Below are positions 12,827-20,071 of a stretch of DNA of 47,813 bases, in pieces. The first letter of the stretch is position 1. Every line of letters begins with the position of its first letter. The position numbers and the translations under genes were made by a program. The stretch is from an uncultured Bacteroidales bacterium (GTDB taxonomy: Bacteria; Bacteroidota; Bacteroidia; Bacteroidales; UBA932), in NCBI GenBank assembly GCA_947630665.1, contig CANRID010000016.1, positions 1 to 47,813 of the forward strand. The letters are read 5' to 3'. The notes beneath the pieces were generated by a model. It did no database searches. It worked only from the letters and a program-made list of their open reading frames with translations, and was not told where the DNA came from.

Positions 12827-13222
12827 ATGGAAGCGGAAATAAGAATCGATAAATATTTGTGGTCGATCCGGGTTTTCAAAACCCGTTCGGAAGCGGCCGA
12901 AGCCTGCAAGACGGGCAAAGTGGAGGTAAACGGGCAGAGCGCCAAATCCTCCCGGGACATTAAGGCGGGAGACAGAATCACCGTGCGCAAAGGAGCGGTA
13001 CGGTTTCAATACATGGTCGTCTGCCCTATCGATAAAAGGCAGGGTGCCAAAAACGTAGCGCTTTATGCAACGGATATCACGCCCCAATCGGAGTTGGACA
13101 AATTGGCTCCGCCGGCGGAAACGATTTTCTTGAAACGGGACCGCGGTTCAGGACGCCCGACTAAAAAAGAAAGGCGCGAAATGGACAGGCTTCTGGACCA
13201 GTTAGACAACACCCCGTTTTAA
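12827..13222 (+). CDS. S4-domain RNA-binding protein (Hsp15-like)
   Basis: 131-aa basic protein. The S4 fold (about residues 1-60: IRIDKYLWSIRVFKTRSEA, then GKVEVNGQ, and later AGDRITVRKG) matches Hsp15/HslR, which in E. coli recycles 50S subunits carrying nascent chains. The basic C-terminus RGSGRPTKKERREMDR is also typical. The first ATG (12827) is preferred; an in-frame TTG nine bases earlier is possible. In many Bacteroidetes an S4 gene of this type sits beside pth and rplY; here those are 6 kb away across the accessory island and on the opposite strand. Confidence 0.88.
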   Translation: MEAEIRIDKYLWSIRVFKTRSEAAEACKTGKVEVNGQSAKSSRDIKAGDRITVRKGAVRFQYMVVCPIDKRQGAKNVALYATDITPQSELDKLAPPAETIFLKRDRGSGRPTKKERREMDRLLDQLDNTPF

Positions 13223-13278
13223 ACGTCAACCGGCCCCGGCACACAATGACAGAATTGCGGTCCACCGTATGTTTCTAC

Positions 13279-14709
13279 TCACGAATTAAAAAGGTCATCC
13301 ATCGTTACTTCGCTGTGAACAATGCTATGGCTTTTAACATTGGCAACGCCATATGTCGTTATAAATGTGTGAACCAAAGTCTTGTTAGTTTTGGTCATCT
13401 CTCTGAACAGACTGGATCGCTCTCGTAGTTGGCGCTCATATTCAGGTTTGATACGATATGCACCAATACTGAATTTTATTTCGCACAGATGTATAATACG
13501 ATCGGCTCGCTCTATAATCATATCAATCTGTCCGCCTGAAATTCCTTCTTCCTTGTTAGGTTTGAGTTGCCACGAGGATAATGATGTCGCAACACCTCTT
13601 ATCCCCAATGCGGATTTAATCTGTTTGTGATGCCTCATGCAGACAAGTTCAAAGCTACTGCCCATCCAATCGAATACACGACCTGAGTCACAATGGTTGC
13701 TCCACCACTCATCATCATGTGAAAGATTATCGGCGAGGAACCGAAAATAGAACAACGAAAAGAAATCGGTAAGTCTGTAAACAGCTCCACGACGCTTATT
13801 GCCATATTGCAGCCACTTTTCAATCATATCAGACCGTTCAAGATTCTTGATAGCCTTGGAGATATGGCTGCTCTTCGATGGCAGTAATTTGATTATATCA
13901 CCTCTCGTCAGTCCGGATTCATGTTCGCTGAGCAATTGGACAACGGCAGTATACAAATCGGCATTATCGAAAAGGGCATGATACAATTCATCGAACTCCA
14001 ATTTTAGAAGTGCGCCGTCATTAAAGAAAAGCCTGTCGATATTTTGAGTGAAACTCAATTCAGAGTCAAGGAGACTGTAATAAAATGGGACGCCACCAAG
14101 TACCATATATGTTTGGGTTAATTGATAGCGGTCCCATTCTATGCCTTTGGTGGCAAGATATCGCTCTGTTTCATTCAATGTAAACGGAGCCAGATGCAGA
14201 TTACAGGTTATTCGGGCATGCAGACCGCCTTTGTTGGCGACAATCTTGTCTTTCATCCACGATGTAGCCGAACCGGTAGCGATAAGCATAATGTTCCGCT
14301 GCGACATAGCCCAACCGTTCCAGAAGTTTTCAAGGGCAGATACAAAGATTGACCTCCCGGAATCCATCCAAGGCATTTCGTCTATAAATACAATTCTTTT
14401 GCGATCGGCAGGCAAAGTAGACAAATACTCTTCAAGGGCATAGAACGCTTCGTCCCAATTGCGCAGATAGCCGAACTGCTTTGTTGAATATCCGTTAAGT
14501 ACTCTCAAAAAGTTGTTCAACTGCCGTCGGGTGGTCATGCCGTGTGCACCGACATATTTGAAATCAAACTGTTGATTGAAGAATTCTTCAATCAGGAATG
14601 TTTTTCCGATGCGCCGTCTGCCGTGAACTATAACCAATTCCGACCTGTCCGAGTTCAGACATCGCTCTAACTCCGCATATTCTTTGTCGCGTCCGATAAG
14701 TTTGCTCAT
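13279..14709 (-). CDS. AAA ATPase with DUF234 nuclease-fold C-terminus
   Basis: 476 aa. The N-terminal archaeal-type ATPase domain has Walker A GRRRIGKT (30-37) and Walker B RIVFIDE (105-111), with a sensor-like ATGS at 144-147. A winged-helix-like region (about 255-315) follows. The C-terminal DUF234 segment shows a PD-(D/E)XK pattern, D396 in GQIDMII with E410 and K412 in CEIKFS. Proteins of this plan are common in Bacteroidetes and archaea and are mostly uncharacterised. Composition is lower in G+C than the core genes to its left, consistent with horizontal acquisition. It converges with the S4 gene (56-bp gap), and its promoter abuts the nested inverted repeat. Confidence 0.85.
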   Translation of the reverse strand: MSKLIGRDKEYAELERCLNSDRSELVIVHGRRRIGKTFLIEEFFNQQFDFKYVGAHGMTTRRQLNNFLRVLNGYSTKQFGYLRNWDEAFYALEEYLSTLPADRKRIVFIDEMPWMDSGRSIFVSALENFWNGWAMSQRNIMLIATGSATSWMKDKIVANKGGLHARITCNLHLAPFTLNETERYLATKGIEWDRYQLTQTYMVLGGVPFYYSLLDSELSFTQNIDRLFFNDGALLKLEFDELYHALFDNADLYTAVVQLLSEHESGLTRGDIIKLLPSKSSHISKAIKNLERSDMIEKWLQYGNKRRGAVYRLTDFFSLFYFRFLADNLSHDDEWWSNHCDSGRVFDWMGSSFELVCMRHHKQIKSALGIRGVATSLSSWQLKPNKEEGISGGQIDMIIERADRIIHLCEIKFSIGAYRIKPEYERQLRERSSLFREMTKTNKTLVHTFITTYGVANVKSHSIVHSEVTMDDLFNS

Positions 14710-14726
14710 CTCTCATGATTTTAATG

Positions 14727-14757
14727 CAAAAATAATCATTTGCCATTGAACAGTCAA
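14727..14757 (-). promoter_or_regulatory. Promoter of the DUF234 ATPase gene
   Basis: Minus-strand TATTTTTG (14734 to 14727) fits TAnnTTTG, with TTGA (14757 to 14754) exactly 19 bp upstream as the -33 element. The -7 box ends 17 nt before the start codon. The nested inverted repeat begins 8 bp further upstream. Confidence 0.55.
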
Positions 14758-14765
14758 GAATAAAA

Positions 14766-14904
14766 ACCACAAACCTGAACTTATCTATGATTTTTTACAA
14801 CATAAATACAGTTCTATGGTTGGCAAAATAGTACTTGCCATAATATTAAACCACAAAACTGGTTTTATCTCCGATAAAATGCCGGATAAGTTCAGGTTTG
14901 TGGT
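14766..14904. repeat. Nested inverted-repeat element, MITE-like
   Basis: A perfect 20-bp inverted repeat (14766-14785 and 14885-14904, unit ACCACAAACCTGAACTTATC) encloses 99 bp. Inside is a third, direct-orientation copy at 14850-14869 matching the left unit at 16 of 20 positions. There are also small hairpins: TGGCAA/TTGCCA at 14821-14840 and TTTTATC/GATAAAA at 14863-14879. The element has no coding capacity and no obvious target-site duplication. It occupies most of the 321-bp gap between the ATPase and collagen-like genes. Confidence 0.75.
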
Positions 14905-14962
14905 CATGCGTACTTTGCCGACGGCTTCGATTTTCGCAGCCAAAGAGAAAATGTGAACATAA

Positions 14963-14993
14963 AAATACGGGACTCTTTTAGAATCCCGTATTT
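14963..14993 (-). terminator. Terminator of the collagen-like gene
   Basis: A 10-bp stem (AAATACGGGA with TCCCGTATTT) has an 11-nt loop. On the minus strand the stem is followed by TTATG after its own run of T, and it lies 37 bp after the stop codon at 15031. Confidence 0.7.
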
Positions 14994-15030
14994 CCCATTT
15001 ATACAAAATTTTGGACAGTGCCTGTTTCGG

Positions 15031-17691
15031 TCAGTTCTTCTTGGGCTTGAACGTGAAACTTCCTGTTATAGGGAACTCCGGTCCGTCGGTGACTTTGAGT
15101 TTCAGCCCCTCCGGAATTACGAAAGTGCAGTCCTGGTCTAAGTTTTTAATCGCATTATCGGACTTCACACATATAATCGGAAGCATCGGATTCGGTCTTC
15201 CGCCTTGCCTGGTCAGCACTAACGTCGCCGACTCCGGTGTCGCAGGCGAGGCTCCATCCCGTTGGCATTTCGTATCGCCCTCCAATTTCAGGGATTCAAA
15301 CCCTCCGGCATACATCATCCACACTCCCACGTTGCCGAGTCTCCCGTCGAAGAACTTGGTGATTTCCTCGTCCGTATAAGGCAGTTGCTGGGTCTTGGGA
15401 TAGCTGGCATCCATTGACAGGTAAATCAACGGGTAACCGTCGCGCCCCGTCTGCTTGTAGGATTTGTCGTTGATATCCGTGGACATCTCGACGCTCCCCA
15501 AGTCAATCTTCTTATTTGCTGCAGGGCCCTTGAACGTCAGTGTGCCCGACACTTTCAGCGCCTTGCCCCCGGAAGTTTTTATCGAATTGCTACCGGACCG
15601 GGTAAGGGTAACCATGTGATCGCCCTCGCAATATTTGAAGCCGCTCACAGCGAAAGCAAGGTCCCCGGAGAAAGTTGTCGCCGTGACCTTCAGGTCGTCG
15701 GCTTTCTGTATGTCTTTCAGGTCGTCTGTATTTTCGATGCTCCACGCCGTCCCGTCTACGAAGAGATATTTTTTCACGCTGTTGGACAGACTGCTCTCCT
15801 TGCCATTGTATTTCAGCGTCGCAGGAGCAGTGTATGCGGCCCCCTCCGACATCCAGCCGCTACGCTTGCCCGTCTCCCATTTCTGGTAGTTCCACATCAC
15901 ATCAACTTCCCACTCATACTCCGAAGGCAATATGTGTACGTCTGCACTGATCACATCGCCTACTTGGATGGAGGTTCCTCCGTTTGAGATCATCAGCTCG
16001 TATTCCGCACTCCATGTCTTGCCTACATTGTCCTTATTTGCTGTTCCCAAAGAGAATGTCAACGGCTTGCCAAGTTCTAAAGTGGGATCCGATGGTTCCG
16101 TCACACAGTTTCCAGGCTTTATGCTTCCTATACTGACTTTTCCGCCCCGCTGCACCGTTCCTTTCAGTTCTTCATCCCACTCGAACTTTTTCTTCGCATC
16201 CTCGAGCGACATCACCGTCTCGCCATTGTCGTAAACCACCTCGTAACCCTCCATCAACTTGATGGGGATGTTGATTTCATCGTAGGCCAGCGTATATTCG
16301 ACATGGTTGTCGCGACTGATGCGCACGTAGGTGTCGCCCTCCTTTCGGGCCACGTAAAAACGATTCGTCAGGTCACTGCCTTCTCCCACAACGGTCGTGT
16401 AAGGCGAGGTAATCTCCGTGTCCTCGTAACGGATGCACAGTGCCACAGCGATATCTCCGTGCGTGAAGTCGTGACTGTTCGCCACAGTGATCAACAGTTC
16501 GCCCGGGCCGTTACCCTCCTCTACTTTCACCACGTTGAACTCATCAAGTCCATTGTGTTCCGGCTCTCCGGCGCGTGTCATTGCGTTCGATACTTTCCGG
16601 ATCGGGCTACCACTCGTCTCTGTCCCCGTCTCCTTTGACTCCGTCTCTCTCGTCACGTGCTCCTGCCAGAAGCTATAATTCCCCGAATTCAAGTACATGA
16701 GCAGCTCGTCGCGCAGCGTCGCCGGCGACACCCGGTACTCTATCTTTTGGGTGTTCGCCACTTTGATTTCCTTTTCTCCTCCACCTTGTACGATGCCTTT
16801 GATGTAAGAGGTACCGAGGTGTATCTTTCCATCGCCGGTCTTGGGTACATACACTAAGCTTTGGATGCGGTCCAGCAACCTCTCTACGGCTTCCGACGAG
16901 GTGAGCGGCACGGTGAAAATAGTCTTGCCGTCCGCCAATGTGAACTCTACGCAGTCGTCTTTCACATTCACGTCTTGGAATAAGGCATCGCCTTTTTCTC
17001 CCTTGGCCTTGATGGGATTCCCGTCTTTATCTATCATTTCTTTCCAGTGATCGCCGCCGTCAATCGATCTCTCCCACACATAGGTATCGGGGTTGATACG
17101 CACTTGCAGGGCCTCGTTTCCTGGAGTTCCGACCTCGCCTTTATCACCTTTGTCGCCTTTATCTCCTTTATCACCCTTGTCGCCCTTGTCGCCTTGGGCG
17201 CCATCATCACCTTTATCACCTTTAGGTCCGGTCACGGGAATCTTCTCTTTTGCATCATTGAGGATCCATTCGCCGTTCAGTGTCCAGTAATACACGCCGT
17301 TCTCATCCTGCTTCACGCCGATAGTCGGGATGCTGCCGGAAACTCCGTCGTCTCCTTTATCTCCTTTATCTCCTTTATCACCCTTATCTCCCTTGGCTCC
17401 GTGGTTGATAAGGATGGACTTTCCGTCCGAAAATGTGATCTGGTAACCGGTCGTAACCTCTTTCACGTCCGTGATAAATATCTTCTCCTGCAAAGCCTTC
17501 ACGAGGGTCTGCAGCGACTGGATATCCGAATTGATCGACTTTTCCCATTCTTCGAGCGATGTCACGCGCTTGTCTAAATTGTCGATGTCATTCCGCAGCT
17601 CCGTATCATCGTACTTGTCGCACGATGCAAAGCTCATCAGCGCCGCTGCAAAGGCGAGATAGAGCCAGCCGATTTTCAATAATTTTTGCAT
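15031..17691 (-). CDS. Surface lipoprotein with DUF4988 and collagen-like repeats
   Basis: 886 aa. The N-terminus is a lipoprotein signal with lipobox SFASC (C24). Residues 27-72 form a predicted trimeric-type coiled coil followed by a DUF4988-like segment (also called the PL29 N-terminal domain). Two collagen-like G-x-y tracts, rich in GDK, lie at 98-119 and about 155-192, split by a DUF4988-like module (YYWTLNGEWIL). The remaining about 650 residues are beta-rich repeats without a domain I can name. Signal and lipobox predict attachment to the membrane, probably at the cell surface. No lyase motif is evident, so function as adhesin or binding protein is inference. It has its own promoter and terminator. 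Confidence 0.8.
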   Translation of the reverse strand: MQKLLKIGWLYLAFAAALMSFASCDKYDDTELRNDIDNLDKRVTSLEEWEKSINSDIQSLQTLVKALQEKIFITDVKEVTTGYQITFSDGKSILINHGAKGDKGDKGDKGDKGDDGVSGSIPTIGVKQDENGVYYWTLNGEWILNDAKEKIPVTGPKGDKGDDGAQGDKGDKGDKGDKGDKGDKGEVGTPGNEALQVRINPDTYVWERSIDGGDHWKEMIDKDGNPIKAKGEKGDALFQDVNVKDDCVEFTLADGKTIFTVPLTSSEAVERLLDRIQSLVYVPKTGDGKIHLGTSYIKGIVQGGGEKEIKVANTQKIEYRVSPATLRDELLMYLNSGNYSFWQEHVTRETESKETGTETSGSPIRKVSNAMTRAGEPEHNGLDEFNVVKVEEGNGPGELLITVANSHDFTHGDIAVALCIRYEDTEITSPYTTVVGEGSDLTNRFYVARKEGDTYVRISRDNHVEYTLAYDEINIPIKLMEGYEVVYDNGETVMSLEDAKKKFEWDEELKGTVQRGGKVSIGSIKPGNCVTEPSDPTLELGKPLTFSLGTANKDNVGKTWSAEYELMISNGGTSIQVGDVISADVHILPSEYEWEVDVMWNYQKWETGKRSGWMSEGAAYTAPATLKYNGKESSLSNSVKKYLFVDGTAWSIENTDDLKDIQKADDLKVTATTFSGDLAFAVSGFKYCEGDHMVTLTRSGSNSIKTSGGKALKVSGTLTFKGPAANKKIDLGSVEMSTDINDKSYKQTGRDGYPLIYLSMDASYPKTQQLPYTDEEITKFFDGRLGNVGVWMMYAGGFESLKLEGDTKCQRDGASPATPESATLVLTRQGGRPNPMLPIICVKSDNAIKNLDQDCTFVIPEGLKLKVTDGPEFPITGSFTFKPKKN
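17122..17229. repeat. Collagen-like coding repeat tract 2
   Basis: Tandem 9-bp units encoding Gly-Asp-Lys triplets (residues about 155-190 of the lipoprotein). Units differ at third positions but include near-identical runs. Slippage would change length by whole triplets, keeping the frame. Confidence 0.75.
17335..17400. repeat. Collagen-like coding repeat tract 1
   Basis: Shorter run of the same GDK-type 9-bp units (residues 98-119 of the lipoprotein), containing several identical consecutive units. Confidence 0.72.
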
Positions 17692-17722
17692 ATAAAATCA
17701 AATTTTTTTGTTTTTCCGGCTA

Positions 17723-17730
17723 CAAATCTA
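17723..17730 (-). promoter_or_regulatory. -7 box of the collagen-like lipoprotein gene
   Basis: Minus-strand TAGATTTG matches TAnnTTTG and lies 31 nt before the start codon at 17691. The region 19-20 bp upstream is A/T-rich without a TTTG. Confidence 0.5.
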
Positions 17731-17772
17731 TAAAATTAGTATATATTATTTAATAGATTTTTGGGATTTTTA

Positions 17773-17784
17773 CCCCCCCCCCCC
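17773..17784. repeat. Homopolymer of 12 C (G12 on the coding strand)
   Basis: Twelve consecutive C on the plus strand, hence G12 upstream of the lipoprotein gene. It lies 42 bp upstream of that gene's -7 box. Runs of this length are prone to slipped-strand length change and to sequencing error. The 365-bp gap between the lipoprotein and DUF1016 genes otherwise holds A/T-rich sequence and repeat copy R1. Confidence 0.85.
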
Positions 17785-17875
17785 GTTTACATTTTATTGA
17801 TATTCAATAATTTATAAACATAAATTTCTACAGCCCAAAAACAGGAAAATGCAGGCGGAATGACAAAAGAACACA

Positions 17876-17989
17876 AAAGCTGTGGTTGCCCCGATGGGAG
17901 ATATGGGGCGGATATAGAGAAAATGTACAAAAAGAAAATACGCCATACGGTTGAATTATAACGCAGCGGTATGGCGCAGAGGCAAAAGA
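17876..17989. repeat. 114-bp direct repeat, copy R1
   Basis: Matches 19355-19468 at 111 of 114 positions (differences at 17901, 17916 and 17969). It lies 68 bp after the stop codon of the minus-strand DUF1016 gene. Read on the minus strand it contains CGCCATAC paired with GTATGGCG around a 20-nt loop, then a T-rich tail (TATTTTCTTTTTG), so it may act as a terminator. Confidence 0.9.
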
Positions 17990-18057
17990 TTGTGGTAAAT
18001 TCTTGATATATTGACTAATTATCTTGAACATCAACAAGTAACGAACAGAATTTGCAA

Positions 18058-19188
18058 TCAGAGCAACAAACTGTCCACATTGTCATTAGTCAACTCATCT
18101 TCAATTTCCTCTATGGTAGGAAGTGCCGACGCTACATCGTTGAACAGTTTTTCAGTTTCATATTGGGCTATCCCCATCGGTTGGGTTATTCCCCTCAGCG
18201 CAAACTCAGCCTTTTTATTGCTTTTGTTGCGACAAAGCAAGAGACCGATCGTTGGCTTATCTTCCGGTGCTTTCACATACTCGTCGACGGCTGAGATATA
18301 GAAATTCAGTTTGCTGACAAACTCAGGGATAAACTCGACAGCCTTTAGCTCAACTACCACATAACAATGCAGTTTCAGGTGATACATCAGAATATCAATA
18401 TAATAATCATCACCATCAACCACAACATTATATTGCCTGCCGATGTAGGCGAATCCATGTCCTAATTCAAGCAGAAATTCTGTCATACGCTCGGCAAGAC
18501 GATTCTCGATGTCACGCTCATGCTGCAAGGCCATAGTGCCTATGAAACTGAAATTATATGGGTCTTTGAAAGCGTACTGAGCAAGATCTGATTGATAGTC
18601 GGGTAAGGTTCGTGAAAAATTAGTGATGGCACTGCCTACCGCATTCATATAACCGCTGTCAATTTTAGACACCATAACATCCCGGTTCCACCCGTTGCGT
18701 GTCGTTTCAAGGATGTAGAAAGCACGTTCCGCATCGCTCTTGATTTTTGGGAGCATGGAGATATGATGATACCAGCTTATGGTTGTCAGGGGAATATCCA
18801 CATAATCCTTTCCGGCTGCCAATTCTGCAAGTGCCGCTTGCGAAATTGGCAGGTCCTTAAATTCTGCAAGTGGTACTTGCAGAATTGGAAAGTTGGGATA
18901 ATTCTCAGCGAACCGTCTCATATAGTGCAGGTTTCTCACTGAGTAACCCTTATCTTCAGGAAACTTACGTGTTAAATCCACGGATAACTGCTCGATTACT
19001 TGCGCTCCCCATCCAAGTTCTTTTTTCTTACGGATAATGTCACTGCCGATGCTCCAATACAAAGAAAGCATGTCGGTATTCACATGAATAGTCGCATTGA
19101 GTTTGGCTTTCTCAATGAGATTTTCAATTCTATTGCGCCATTCAGCGTAACCATCCGGAAGGTTAATTACGTCTATTTCAGCTTTCAT
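18058..19188 (-). CDS. DUF1016 / YhcG-like PD-(D/E)XK nuclease
   Basis: 376 aa. The N-terminal helical DUF1016_N region (about residues 15-180: SLYWSIGSDI, SVRNLHYMRRFAE, TISWYHHISML) is followed by a C-terminal nuclease-fold domain. That domain has D265 in YYIDILMY and E280/K282 in VVELKA, so the active site looks intact. A 13-residue repeat (about 97-123) sits between conserved blocks. Family members occur in genomic islands and with restriction-modification or phage-defence genes, but the cellular role is not settled. The gene stands alone between two 114-bp direct repeats. A TAnnTTTG box ends only 4 nt before its ATG. Confidence 0.87.
   Translation of the reverse strand: MKAEIDVINLPDGYAEWRNRIENLIEKAKLNATIHVNTDMLSLYWSIGSDIIRKKKELGWGAQVIEQLSVDLTRKFPEDKGYSVRNLHYMRRFAENYPNFPILQVPLAEFKDLPISQAALAELAAGKDYVDIPLTTISWYHHISMLPKIKSDAERAFYILETTRNGWNRDVMVSKIDSGYMNAVGSAITNFSRTLPDYQSDLAQYAFKDPYNFSFIGTMALQHERDIENRLAERMTEFLLELGHGFAYIGRQYNVVVDGDDYYIDILMYHLKLHCYVVVELKAVEFIPEFVSKLNFYISAVDEYVKAPEDKPTIGLLLCRNKSNKKAEFALRGITQPMGIAQYETEKLFNDVASALPTIEEIEDELTNDNVDSLLL
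18821..18898. repeat. 39-bp tandem repeat with palindromes inside the DUF1016 gene
   Basis: Two 39-bp units (18821-18859 and 18860-18898), both starting AATTCTGCAAGTG. The second contains a perfect 11-bp palindrome, ATTCTGCAAGT and ACTTGCAGAAT, around GGT at 18861-18885. The first has a decayed version of the same hairpin. Each unit encodes 13 residues and keeps the frame. Confidence 0.8.
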
Positions 19189-19192
19189 AATA

Positions 19193-19200
19193 CAAAACTA
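19193..19200 (-). promoter_or_regulatory. -7 box abutting the DUF1016 start
   Basis: Minus-strand TAGTTTTG matches TAnnTTTG and ends 4 nt before the ATG at 19188, which would give an mRNA with almost no leader. No clear -33 box is seen. The rest of the 310-bp gap to pth holds non-coding sequence and repeat copy R2. Confidence 0.4.
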
Positions 19201-19354
19201 ATAAAAAATTCGTCAATAACGTCCTGAACCCCGACATCACTACCGGGGTTGCTTGTCATTGTCGTATGGTGAATTACCTGATTACAATACAGACAGCTTG
19301 AAGTTGTAGTATGCGGCCTTTTTCGGTTATCCGGTCCATCGTGCGTTCCGATGT

Positions 19355-19468
19355 AAAGCTGTGGTTGCCCCGATGGGAGGTATGGGGCGGATATGGAGAA
19401 AATGTACAAAAAGAAAATACGCCATACGGTTGAATTATAACGCAGCGATATGGCGCAGAGGCAAAAGA
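19355..19468. repeat. 114-bp direct repeat, copy R2
   Basis: Second copy of the repeat at 17876-17989, offset by 1,479 bp. It sits 30 bp after the pth stop codon (minus strand). Its hairpin has one end-pair mismatch relative to R1 (A at 19448), otherwise the same stem and T-rich tail. Confidence 0.9.
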
Positions 19469-19498
19469 CTATACGATTGTCTTTATGGGATTATTTTT

Positions 19499-20071
19499 CT
19501 AAGGATTCTGCCTCTTATTGAACTGGTTCATGGCGCAATCCGCCCCGACCGTAACGAATGCCTTGATAATCTCGACAGCCCTGTCGGTAATGAAAGGAAG
19601 TTCTTTTTCTTCTTCTCCGTTCCATCTGCCCAGCACGTAATCCACCTGGCCGCCTTTGTTGAAATTATCGCCGATTCCTATTCTCAAACGGGCGTAGGCC
19701 GTATTTCCTAAACACTCGTTAATGCTTTTAAGTCCGTTGTGGCCCCCGTCGCTTCCCTGTTTGCGCAAGCGCATGCTTCCGAAAGGAAGAGCCAGATCGT
19801 CCACCACGACCAGTAAATTCTCTTCTTTTATCTTTCCGGCTCCGAGCCAATAATTGACCGCCTTTCCGCTTAGATTCATATACGTGGACGGCTTGAGCAG
19901 AACAAGCTTATGTCCCCGTAAGGATATCTCCGCGGTAGAACCGTAACGCCCGGAAATAAAAGAGGTGCCGGACTCTTTGGCAAAAGAATCCAGCACCGTA
20001 AAACCTATATTATGCCGGGTATTTGCGTATTCAGCGCCTATATTTCCCAATCCTGCGATTAAATAAGCCAT
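19499..20071 (-). CDS. pth: Peptidyl-tRNA hydrolase
   Basis: Frees tRNA from prematurely released peptidyl-tRNA. The 190-aa protein starts MAYLIAGLGNIG and has the catalytic His H20 in NTRHNIGF, N10 in GLGN, the STYMNLSG segment and the VVVDDLALPFG Asp. The ATG at 20071 is preferred; an upstream TTG at 20083 would add only four residues. The stop of rplY (20089) is 17 bp upstream, so rplY-pth is an operon, as in many bacteria. Confidence 0.96.
   Translation of the reverse strand: MAYLIAGLGNIGAEYANTRHNIGFTVLDSFAKESGTSFISGRYGSTAEISLRGHKLVLLKPSTYMNLSGKAVNYWLGAGKIKEENLLVVVDDLALPFGSMRLRKQGSDGGHNGLKSINECLGNTAYARLRIGIGDNFNKGGQVDYVLGRWNGEEEKELPFITDRAVEIIKAFVTVGADCAMNQFNKRQNP

Follow-up and report, generated by a model that had tools for sequence, protein, structure and literature searches.

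Insertion with long target duplication has reportedly been described for restriction-modification genes by Nobusato et al. in 2000 and by Furuta et al. in 2010. A review (PMC3874152) states of certain restriction-modification systems that they duplicate the target on insertion, over long and variable lengths "in the order of 100 bp", and the insertion of restriction-modification genes with a long target duplication is also treated in PMC3031569 and PMC1643837. No report of a long target duplication was found in the literature searched for either DUF1016 or HipA.

The window, which is the whole stretch of 47,813 nucleotides analysed here and represents one contig of a draft assembly (2.24 Mb, 60 contigs, 93% complete), contains a DUF1016 (YhcG) nuclease gene that lies behind the peptidyl-tRNA hydrolase gene pth, between two copies of a direct repeat (R). 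The unit resembles the restriction-modification insertions in the lack of a transposase, in direct repeats roughly 100 bp in length (114 bp, 97% identical), and in a repeat sequence that differs between loci; for a comparable locus in another pair of genomes (G079/G301), there is also a relative with one copy. It differs from them in being a solitary DUF1016 gene without a methyltransferase, in the Bacteroidales, and in that hipA genes share the footprint and the upstream copy is often found at the 3' end of a gene. The window unit probably represents the same mode of insertion without being a member of the restriction-modification group, and would count as a known kind of event rather than a new system.

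A CIME is an island flanked by attachment sites, and the window is similar in that direct repeats flank a segment that follows a core gene and has no recombinase. Unlike a CIME, however, no integrase-bearing element with R was found in the data searched, R lies 30 bp outside pth, and the repeats vary from locus to locus.

The repeat pair and the DUF1016 gene

The features of the locus, by position in the window, are:

12827..13222, plus strand: gene of what we take to be an S4-like RNA-binding protein, the left edge of the variable region, convergent with pth in most of the relatives examined
13279..14709, minus strand: ATPase gene matching the PADLOC model PDC-S27 (7e-190), the second candidate defence gene, in the 6.3-kb insertion
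15031..17691, minus strand: DUF4988/collagen-repeat gene, in the 6.3-kb insertion
17876..17989, minus strand: R1, the downstream repeat copy, 68 bp past the DUF1016 stop codon
17990..19468, minus strand: proposed inserted unit of 1479 bp, made up of DUF1016 and a single repeat copy, drawn by analogy with G079/G301
18058..19188, minus strand: DUF1016/YhcG-type PDDEXK nuclease gene, an intact ORF of 376 aa, assigned by Pfam domains and a PADLOC model
19189..19354, minus strand: stretch of 166 bp from R2 to the DUF1016 start codon
19355..19468, minus strand: R2, the upstream repeat copy, which starts 30 bp past the pth stop codon
19499..20083, minus strand: pth, peptidyl-tRNA hydrolase, a core gene with the unit at its 3' end

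An earlier reading of the sequence alone (the sequence-only reading) had described a 114-bp direct repeat, matching at 111 of 114 positions, with copies 1,479 bp apart, each downstream of a minus-strand gene (DUF1016 and pth), and both the coordinates and the alignment confirm this description. The copies are 114 bp each, in direct orientation, with three mismatches (97% identity) and a start-to-start period of 1479 bp, and an identity of 111/114 at this spacing is not attributable to chance. A misjoin across R is conceivable in a draft assembly of 60 contigs; the three mismatches argue against it, without excluding it fully. Either R1 or R2 may be the newer copy.

Only two copies of R, R1 and R2, were found in the source genome (151-bp query, 2.24-Mb assembly), the next best match having an E value of 0.05. 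The repeat is absent from 60 relatives, aside from partial matches of 26–28 bp in three of them (G005, G011, and G017), which lie within coding sequence, presumably the end of a fructose-bisphosphate aldolase-type gene, and were rejected as chance matches. None of the 38 congeners carries R, an exact search of the viral contigs of IMG/VR returned no matches, and a pattern search across genome contigs recovered a single unrelated match, in Candidatus Sungbacteria. This confinement to one locus argues, within the data searched, against R being a dispersed element or an attachment site in wide use. With 114 bp, R is too short for a transposase gene, and it occupies a single locus, so that the repeats are not the IS copies of a composite transposon; two copies in the genome also differ from the many dispersed copies of a MITE or REP.

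On the minus strand, each copy of R forms two hairpins, one of them of about ten pairs and followed by a T-rich stretch (z = -3.1 for R1 and -2.1 for R2), while the plus strand folds better still (z = -4.8 and -2.5, respectively). The hairpin with a T-rich tail described in the sequence-only reading is thus real as a fold; it was not called by a simple terminator scan, whose permitted loop length it exceeds, and "terminator-like", as a prediction from the fold, is therefore a fair wording. An Rfam scan returned no matches, and no tRNA is present in the window.

The product of the gene between the repeats has the DUF1016_N (6e-36) and YhcG PDDEXK (5e-55) domains, both over the Pfam cut-off, and retains the E...D...ELK residues of the family motif, as given in a part of PMC1189080, which places it in the DUF1016/YhcG family. 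It also matches the PADLOC model PDC-S02 (E 1.5e-128). The "PDC" models of PADLOC presumably denote candidate systems, and the nuclease is, on this model match, a candidate anti-phage gene. No promoter was assigned in the stretch between R2 and the start codon, where the sole minus-strand sigma-70-like match overlaps the start codon itself. Imperfect inverted and direct repeats are found within the coding sequence at 18819-18888, with similar pieces in the homologues L164, L165, and L166.

The claim that no integrase or transposase lies inside the repeats also held: DUF1016 is the only ORF of more than 96 aa between the copies, where no transposase, integrase, or IS was found, nor any methyltransferase, which leaves the DUF1016 gene solitary. 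Searches of plasmids and phages returned DUF1016 homologues as the only matches, and around the nearest of them, carried by a plasmid of Segatella hominis, there are no more than two short repeats (31–32 bp) within 1500 bp. In Escherichia coli, the yhcG region is matched in some part by 5365 of 5426 genomes, and is 80% covered in 3124; the K-12 yhcG has no flanking repeat.

The interval between the S4-like gene and pth

The S4-like gene of the window ends at 13222 and pth at 19499, with 6.3 kb between them that contain the PDC-S27 ATPase, the DUF4988/collagen-type gene, R1, DUF1016, and R2; none of the three large ORFs of this insertion is a recombinase. The relatives' pth loci examined number 29 (28 from congeners and one from another family) and are the best-scoring of the 56 relatives with a match. 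In 22 of them, an S4-type gene is convergent with pth and no more than 300 bp away. In the other seven, the S4-type gene is found at 1148 bp in one, in the opposite orientation in one, and is absent from the flank in five. The genes of the window's insertion are absent from all 14 of the relatives' pth neighbourhoods compared, one of which is cut by a contig end. Because the S4–pth junction is tight (<300 bp) in 22/29 relatives and spans 6.3 kb in the window, this interval is a lineage-specific insertion.

The sequence-only reading would have given up the cassette idea if the repeat were found only here, with no empty site in any strain. This is literally what was found for R in the genome and its relatives, as R is missing in all 60 and no one-repeat empty site was found at their pth loci, but it is weak evidence, because the pth protein of the nearest relative is only 79% identical and its intergenic DNA does not align with that of the window. 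The same absence of R from the relatives searched counts against the explanation preferred below, in which the presence of R at pth before its duplication has to be supposed. No swapping of cassettes at pth, as had been proposed, was seen, with R carried by none of the 38 congeners.

With the PDC-S27 ATPase and the PDC-S02 DUF1016 gene, the interval 13223-19498 looks like a small island of candidate defence genes, placed at a core-gene junction. A run of 12 C at 17773-17784, some 80–90 bp upstream of the DUF4988 start on the minus strand, may be a slippage site that controls this gene.

Direct repeats around DUF1016 and HipA genes in the Bacteroidales

Direct repeats were sought within 800 bp on each side of the DUF1016 genes found across the Bacteroidales, with ORFs defined by a simple longest-ORF rule. 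The survey started with 128 DUF1016 ORFs in 135 loci, which are the better-scoring share of the homology matches, rather than a random sample, and the removal of protein-sequence duplicates and of ORFs with less than 60 bp of flank left 116. At E<=1e-10, a threshold picked after inspection of the data, 20 of the 116 genes are bracketed by direct repeats (the window's gene included, and two being neighbours in one tandem array), in comparison with 16 of the 582 other ORFs of the survey (Fisher p = 4e-8), all 16 of which come from stretches surrounding DUF1016 genes. In the control subset, which comprises 40 ORFs of the window and 177 ORFs of 14 pth regions, none is bracketed (0/217; Fisher p = 2e-10), and both of these counts remain at zero at E<=1e-3, where 24/116 DUF1016 genes and 22/582 other ORFs are bracketed. 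The remaining 96 DUF1016 genes have no bracketing repeat at E<=1e-10, and they include the closest homologues of the window's gene, in G244 (69%) and in G246 (72% over part, a solitary gene). The G244 locus (L164), which holds the best-scoring homologue (69%), appears to be a type I restriction shuffling locus, with inverted repeats and a recombinase gene, where the neighbours of DUF1016 resemble genes of type I specificity subunits.

The bracketing repeats are 30–193 bp long and, when one copy of each of the 20 was compared, mostly unrelated in sequence, with matches limited to three pairs: two units that belong to the same tandem array, a pair that shares 42 bp at 74%, and the window's R with the repeat of L142, over 16 bp. 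Bracketing repeats at DUF1016 loci are not one single phenomenon. Read by eye, the repeats around seven of the 20 bracketed genes also surround other units, in arrays or tandem sets, and may be of other origin; in the other 13, the repeat was seen only around DUF1016 within the stretch examined. The upstream copy overlaps the 3' end of an upstream ORF of the same strand, or begins within 30 bp of it, at 8 of the 20 loci, including the window, and it takes in the final 72 nt of the neighbouring gene at L140 and the final 101 nt at L054, stop codon included. The recurrence of these other repeats within their own genomes was searched at four loci (L051, L210, L140, and L208). In G258 (L208:9900-10080), about 50 copies of a repeat of ~160 bp are found genome-wide, one of them directly behind DUF1016.

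Empty sites were sought at three loci, those of G079, G258, and G010. Between G079 and G301, identity is 96% in one flank (427 bp) and 91% in the other (1951 bp). In G301, which has no DUF1016 gene there, the two flank alignments overlap by exactly 72 bp, corresponding to a single copy of the repeat. In G079, two copies enclose 1183 bp with DUF1016, and the 72-bp repeat is the 3' end of the neighbouring gene; the copy that still serves as the coding 3' end has four differences from the empty site of G301, and the other has six. On sequence comparison, this is clearly a clean filled and empty pair of congeners. The second case agrees more weakly with a one-copy empty site: G343 and G344 each have one place that matches both copies of the G258 repeat (106 bp, 98% between copies), with no DUF1016 in the stretch examined, but only 55–62 bp align, at 73–76%.

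The third case, in the window's genus, involves G010 and G031, and G026, which has one repeat copy and a different DUF1016 gene beside it. Target duplication is not the sole possible reading here, because the G010 repeat is a promoter-like block that is also found ahead of further genes of the genus, some of them toxin-like, and because the DUF1016 gene of G026 is a different one. A promoter-like block of ~90 bp that contains two palindromes is conserved in the genus ahead of DUF1016 and of other genes, presumably HigB/RelE-like, ORF6N-like, and HicB-like (L210, L262, L266, L270, and L282-L289), and may represent a shared regulon or a mobile promoter.

As a control, 30 HipA_C loci were sampled in the same way as DUF1016, 29 of them with sufficient flank. 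Five of these 29 are bracketed, the same rate as the 20/116 of DUF1016 (Fisher p = 1.0), while none of the 49 HipA neighbours is. Given this equal rate, in a single control family, a DUF1016-specific mechanism, with the nuclease as its own mobiliser, was rejected as a general explanation. The footprint seems to be a property of the arrival of single accessory genes, of which the nuclease need not be the agent, although two families are a narrow base, and, with the footprint just as frequent at hipA genes, the DUF1016 nuclease was most likely carried along as cargo. At another locus (L326, G085:C350), a gene whose product resembles, by eye, a DUF1016 protein comes directly after a hipBA unit enclosed between 38-bp repeats.

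Probable origin of the repeat pair

On balance, the window is probably best explained by the arrival of the DUF1016 gene behind pth, with the duplication of its landing site of about 114 bp, that is, by an insertion with long target duplication. A single DUF1016 (YhcG) gene would have joined the chromosome just past the 3' end of pth, and its arrival would have duplicated some 114 bp of the target, leaving the gene between the two copies. The duplication would be the work of the host, as it recombined or repaired DNA that had been joined at the gene end, rather than of the nuclease, a supposition that follows from the equal rate of the footprint in hipA genes. Possible routes would include the single-crossover integration of a circle that carries the gene end, or the repair of a one-sided homologous join. 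By analogy, we infer that the window arose like the insertions in other genomes for which a one-copy empty site is available.

The cassette idea of the sequence-only reading survives in part. The unit of DUF1016 and one repeat does look inserted, given the relatives that lack it and the one-copy sites of G079/G301 and, more weakly, of G258/G343/G344, but neither the swapping nor a reusable site, acting as a terminator and recombination target, was borne out. Because R is found only here, and the repeats of other DUF1016 loci are mostly unrelated, a duplicated target fits better than a dedicated recombination site.

It is rather unlikely, by comparison, that the window preserves the relic of a gene array, in which two neighbours each ended in R and one of them was lost or replaced, leaving DUF1016 between the copies through tandem duplication and decay. 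Tandem DUF1016 arrays with a common repeat of 55–60 bp do exist, at L209 (four units and five repeats) and L170, and G010 retains a DUF1016 N-terminal remnant next to one copy. However, the ORF list and a reading by eye reveal no DUF1016-like ORF to the left of R1 or to the right of the gene, R was found nowhere else, its identity of 111/114 suggests recent copies, and the one-copy empty site of G079/G301 requires no array.

The attC features of integron gene cassettes provide a basis for comparison with R, and the window is similar to a cassette in having one gene followed by a 3' repeat of ~100 bp with hairpin potential, while gene and repeat arrays that include DUF1016 are known from relatives. 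A site-specific cassette of DUF1016 and R, with R as the attachment site of a tyrosine recombinase encoded elsewhere in the genome, would draw further on such arrays (L193, L192, and L205), on the IntI-like recombinases, below the model cut-off, of the congeners G010 and G031, and on the repeats of G218 (L192, the G218:C184 array), which include the C-terminal end of a gene for a tyrosine recombinase. We nevertheless find this origin improbable, as the window has two copies and no array, and R occurs at no other gene of the source genome and forms two separate hairpins, rather than a single long imperfect palindrome. The IntI model TIGR02249 was matched over its cut-off in none of 22 genomes, including the source genome (G000), although weaker tyrosine-recombinase matches occur in all of them, and the insertion's three large ORFs include no recombinase, while the repeats of other loci are mostly unlike R. 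An integron cassette proper was rejected for the window, on the two hairpins of R, the lack of a TIGR02249 match over the cut-off, and the absence from the source genome of a palindrome found in G004. This imperfect palindrome, of ~118 bp, was recovered at E<=1e-4 from 9 of the genus's 39 genomes (L205 and L212-L239), and in G004 it lies between unrelated genes, in an integron-like manner.

That R is a mobile intergenic element, MITE- or REP-like, which landed independently on either side of the gene, is very improbable: a ~160-bp repeat does adjoin DUF1016 in one of its ~50 places in G258, but R has two copies in 2.24 Mb, both at one locus and in the same orientation, and none in the 60 relatives.

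The duplication of a landing site behind pth, the reading preferred here, may also extend beyond this locus. To our knowledge, the route by which single genes without a transposase leave target duplications of ~100 bp has been open since the restriction-modification insertions were described. We tentatively suggest, with rather more doubt than for the window itself, that single accessory genes of the Bacteroidales (DUF1016 nucleases, hipBA toxin-antitoxin pairs, and probably others) may share a general route of insertion that involves no mobile element, often leads to the 3' ends of genes, and duplicates a target of ~30–190 bp. Such a route would need no dedicated recombinase, with the duplication being made by host replication or repair, and the equal rate of DUF1016 and HipA suggests that the genes are not moved by the proteins they encode. 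Together with the G079/G301 pair, this equal rate makes the arrival of single genes a countable and testable process in the Bacteroidales, which, if the route is real, would feed defence and toxin genes into the neighbourhoods of core genes.
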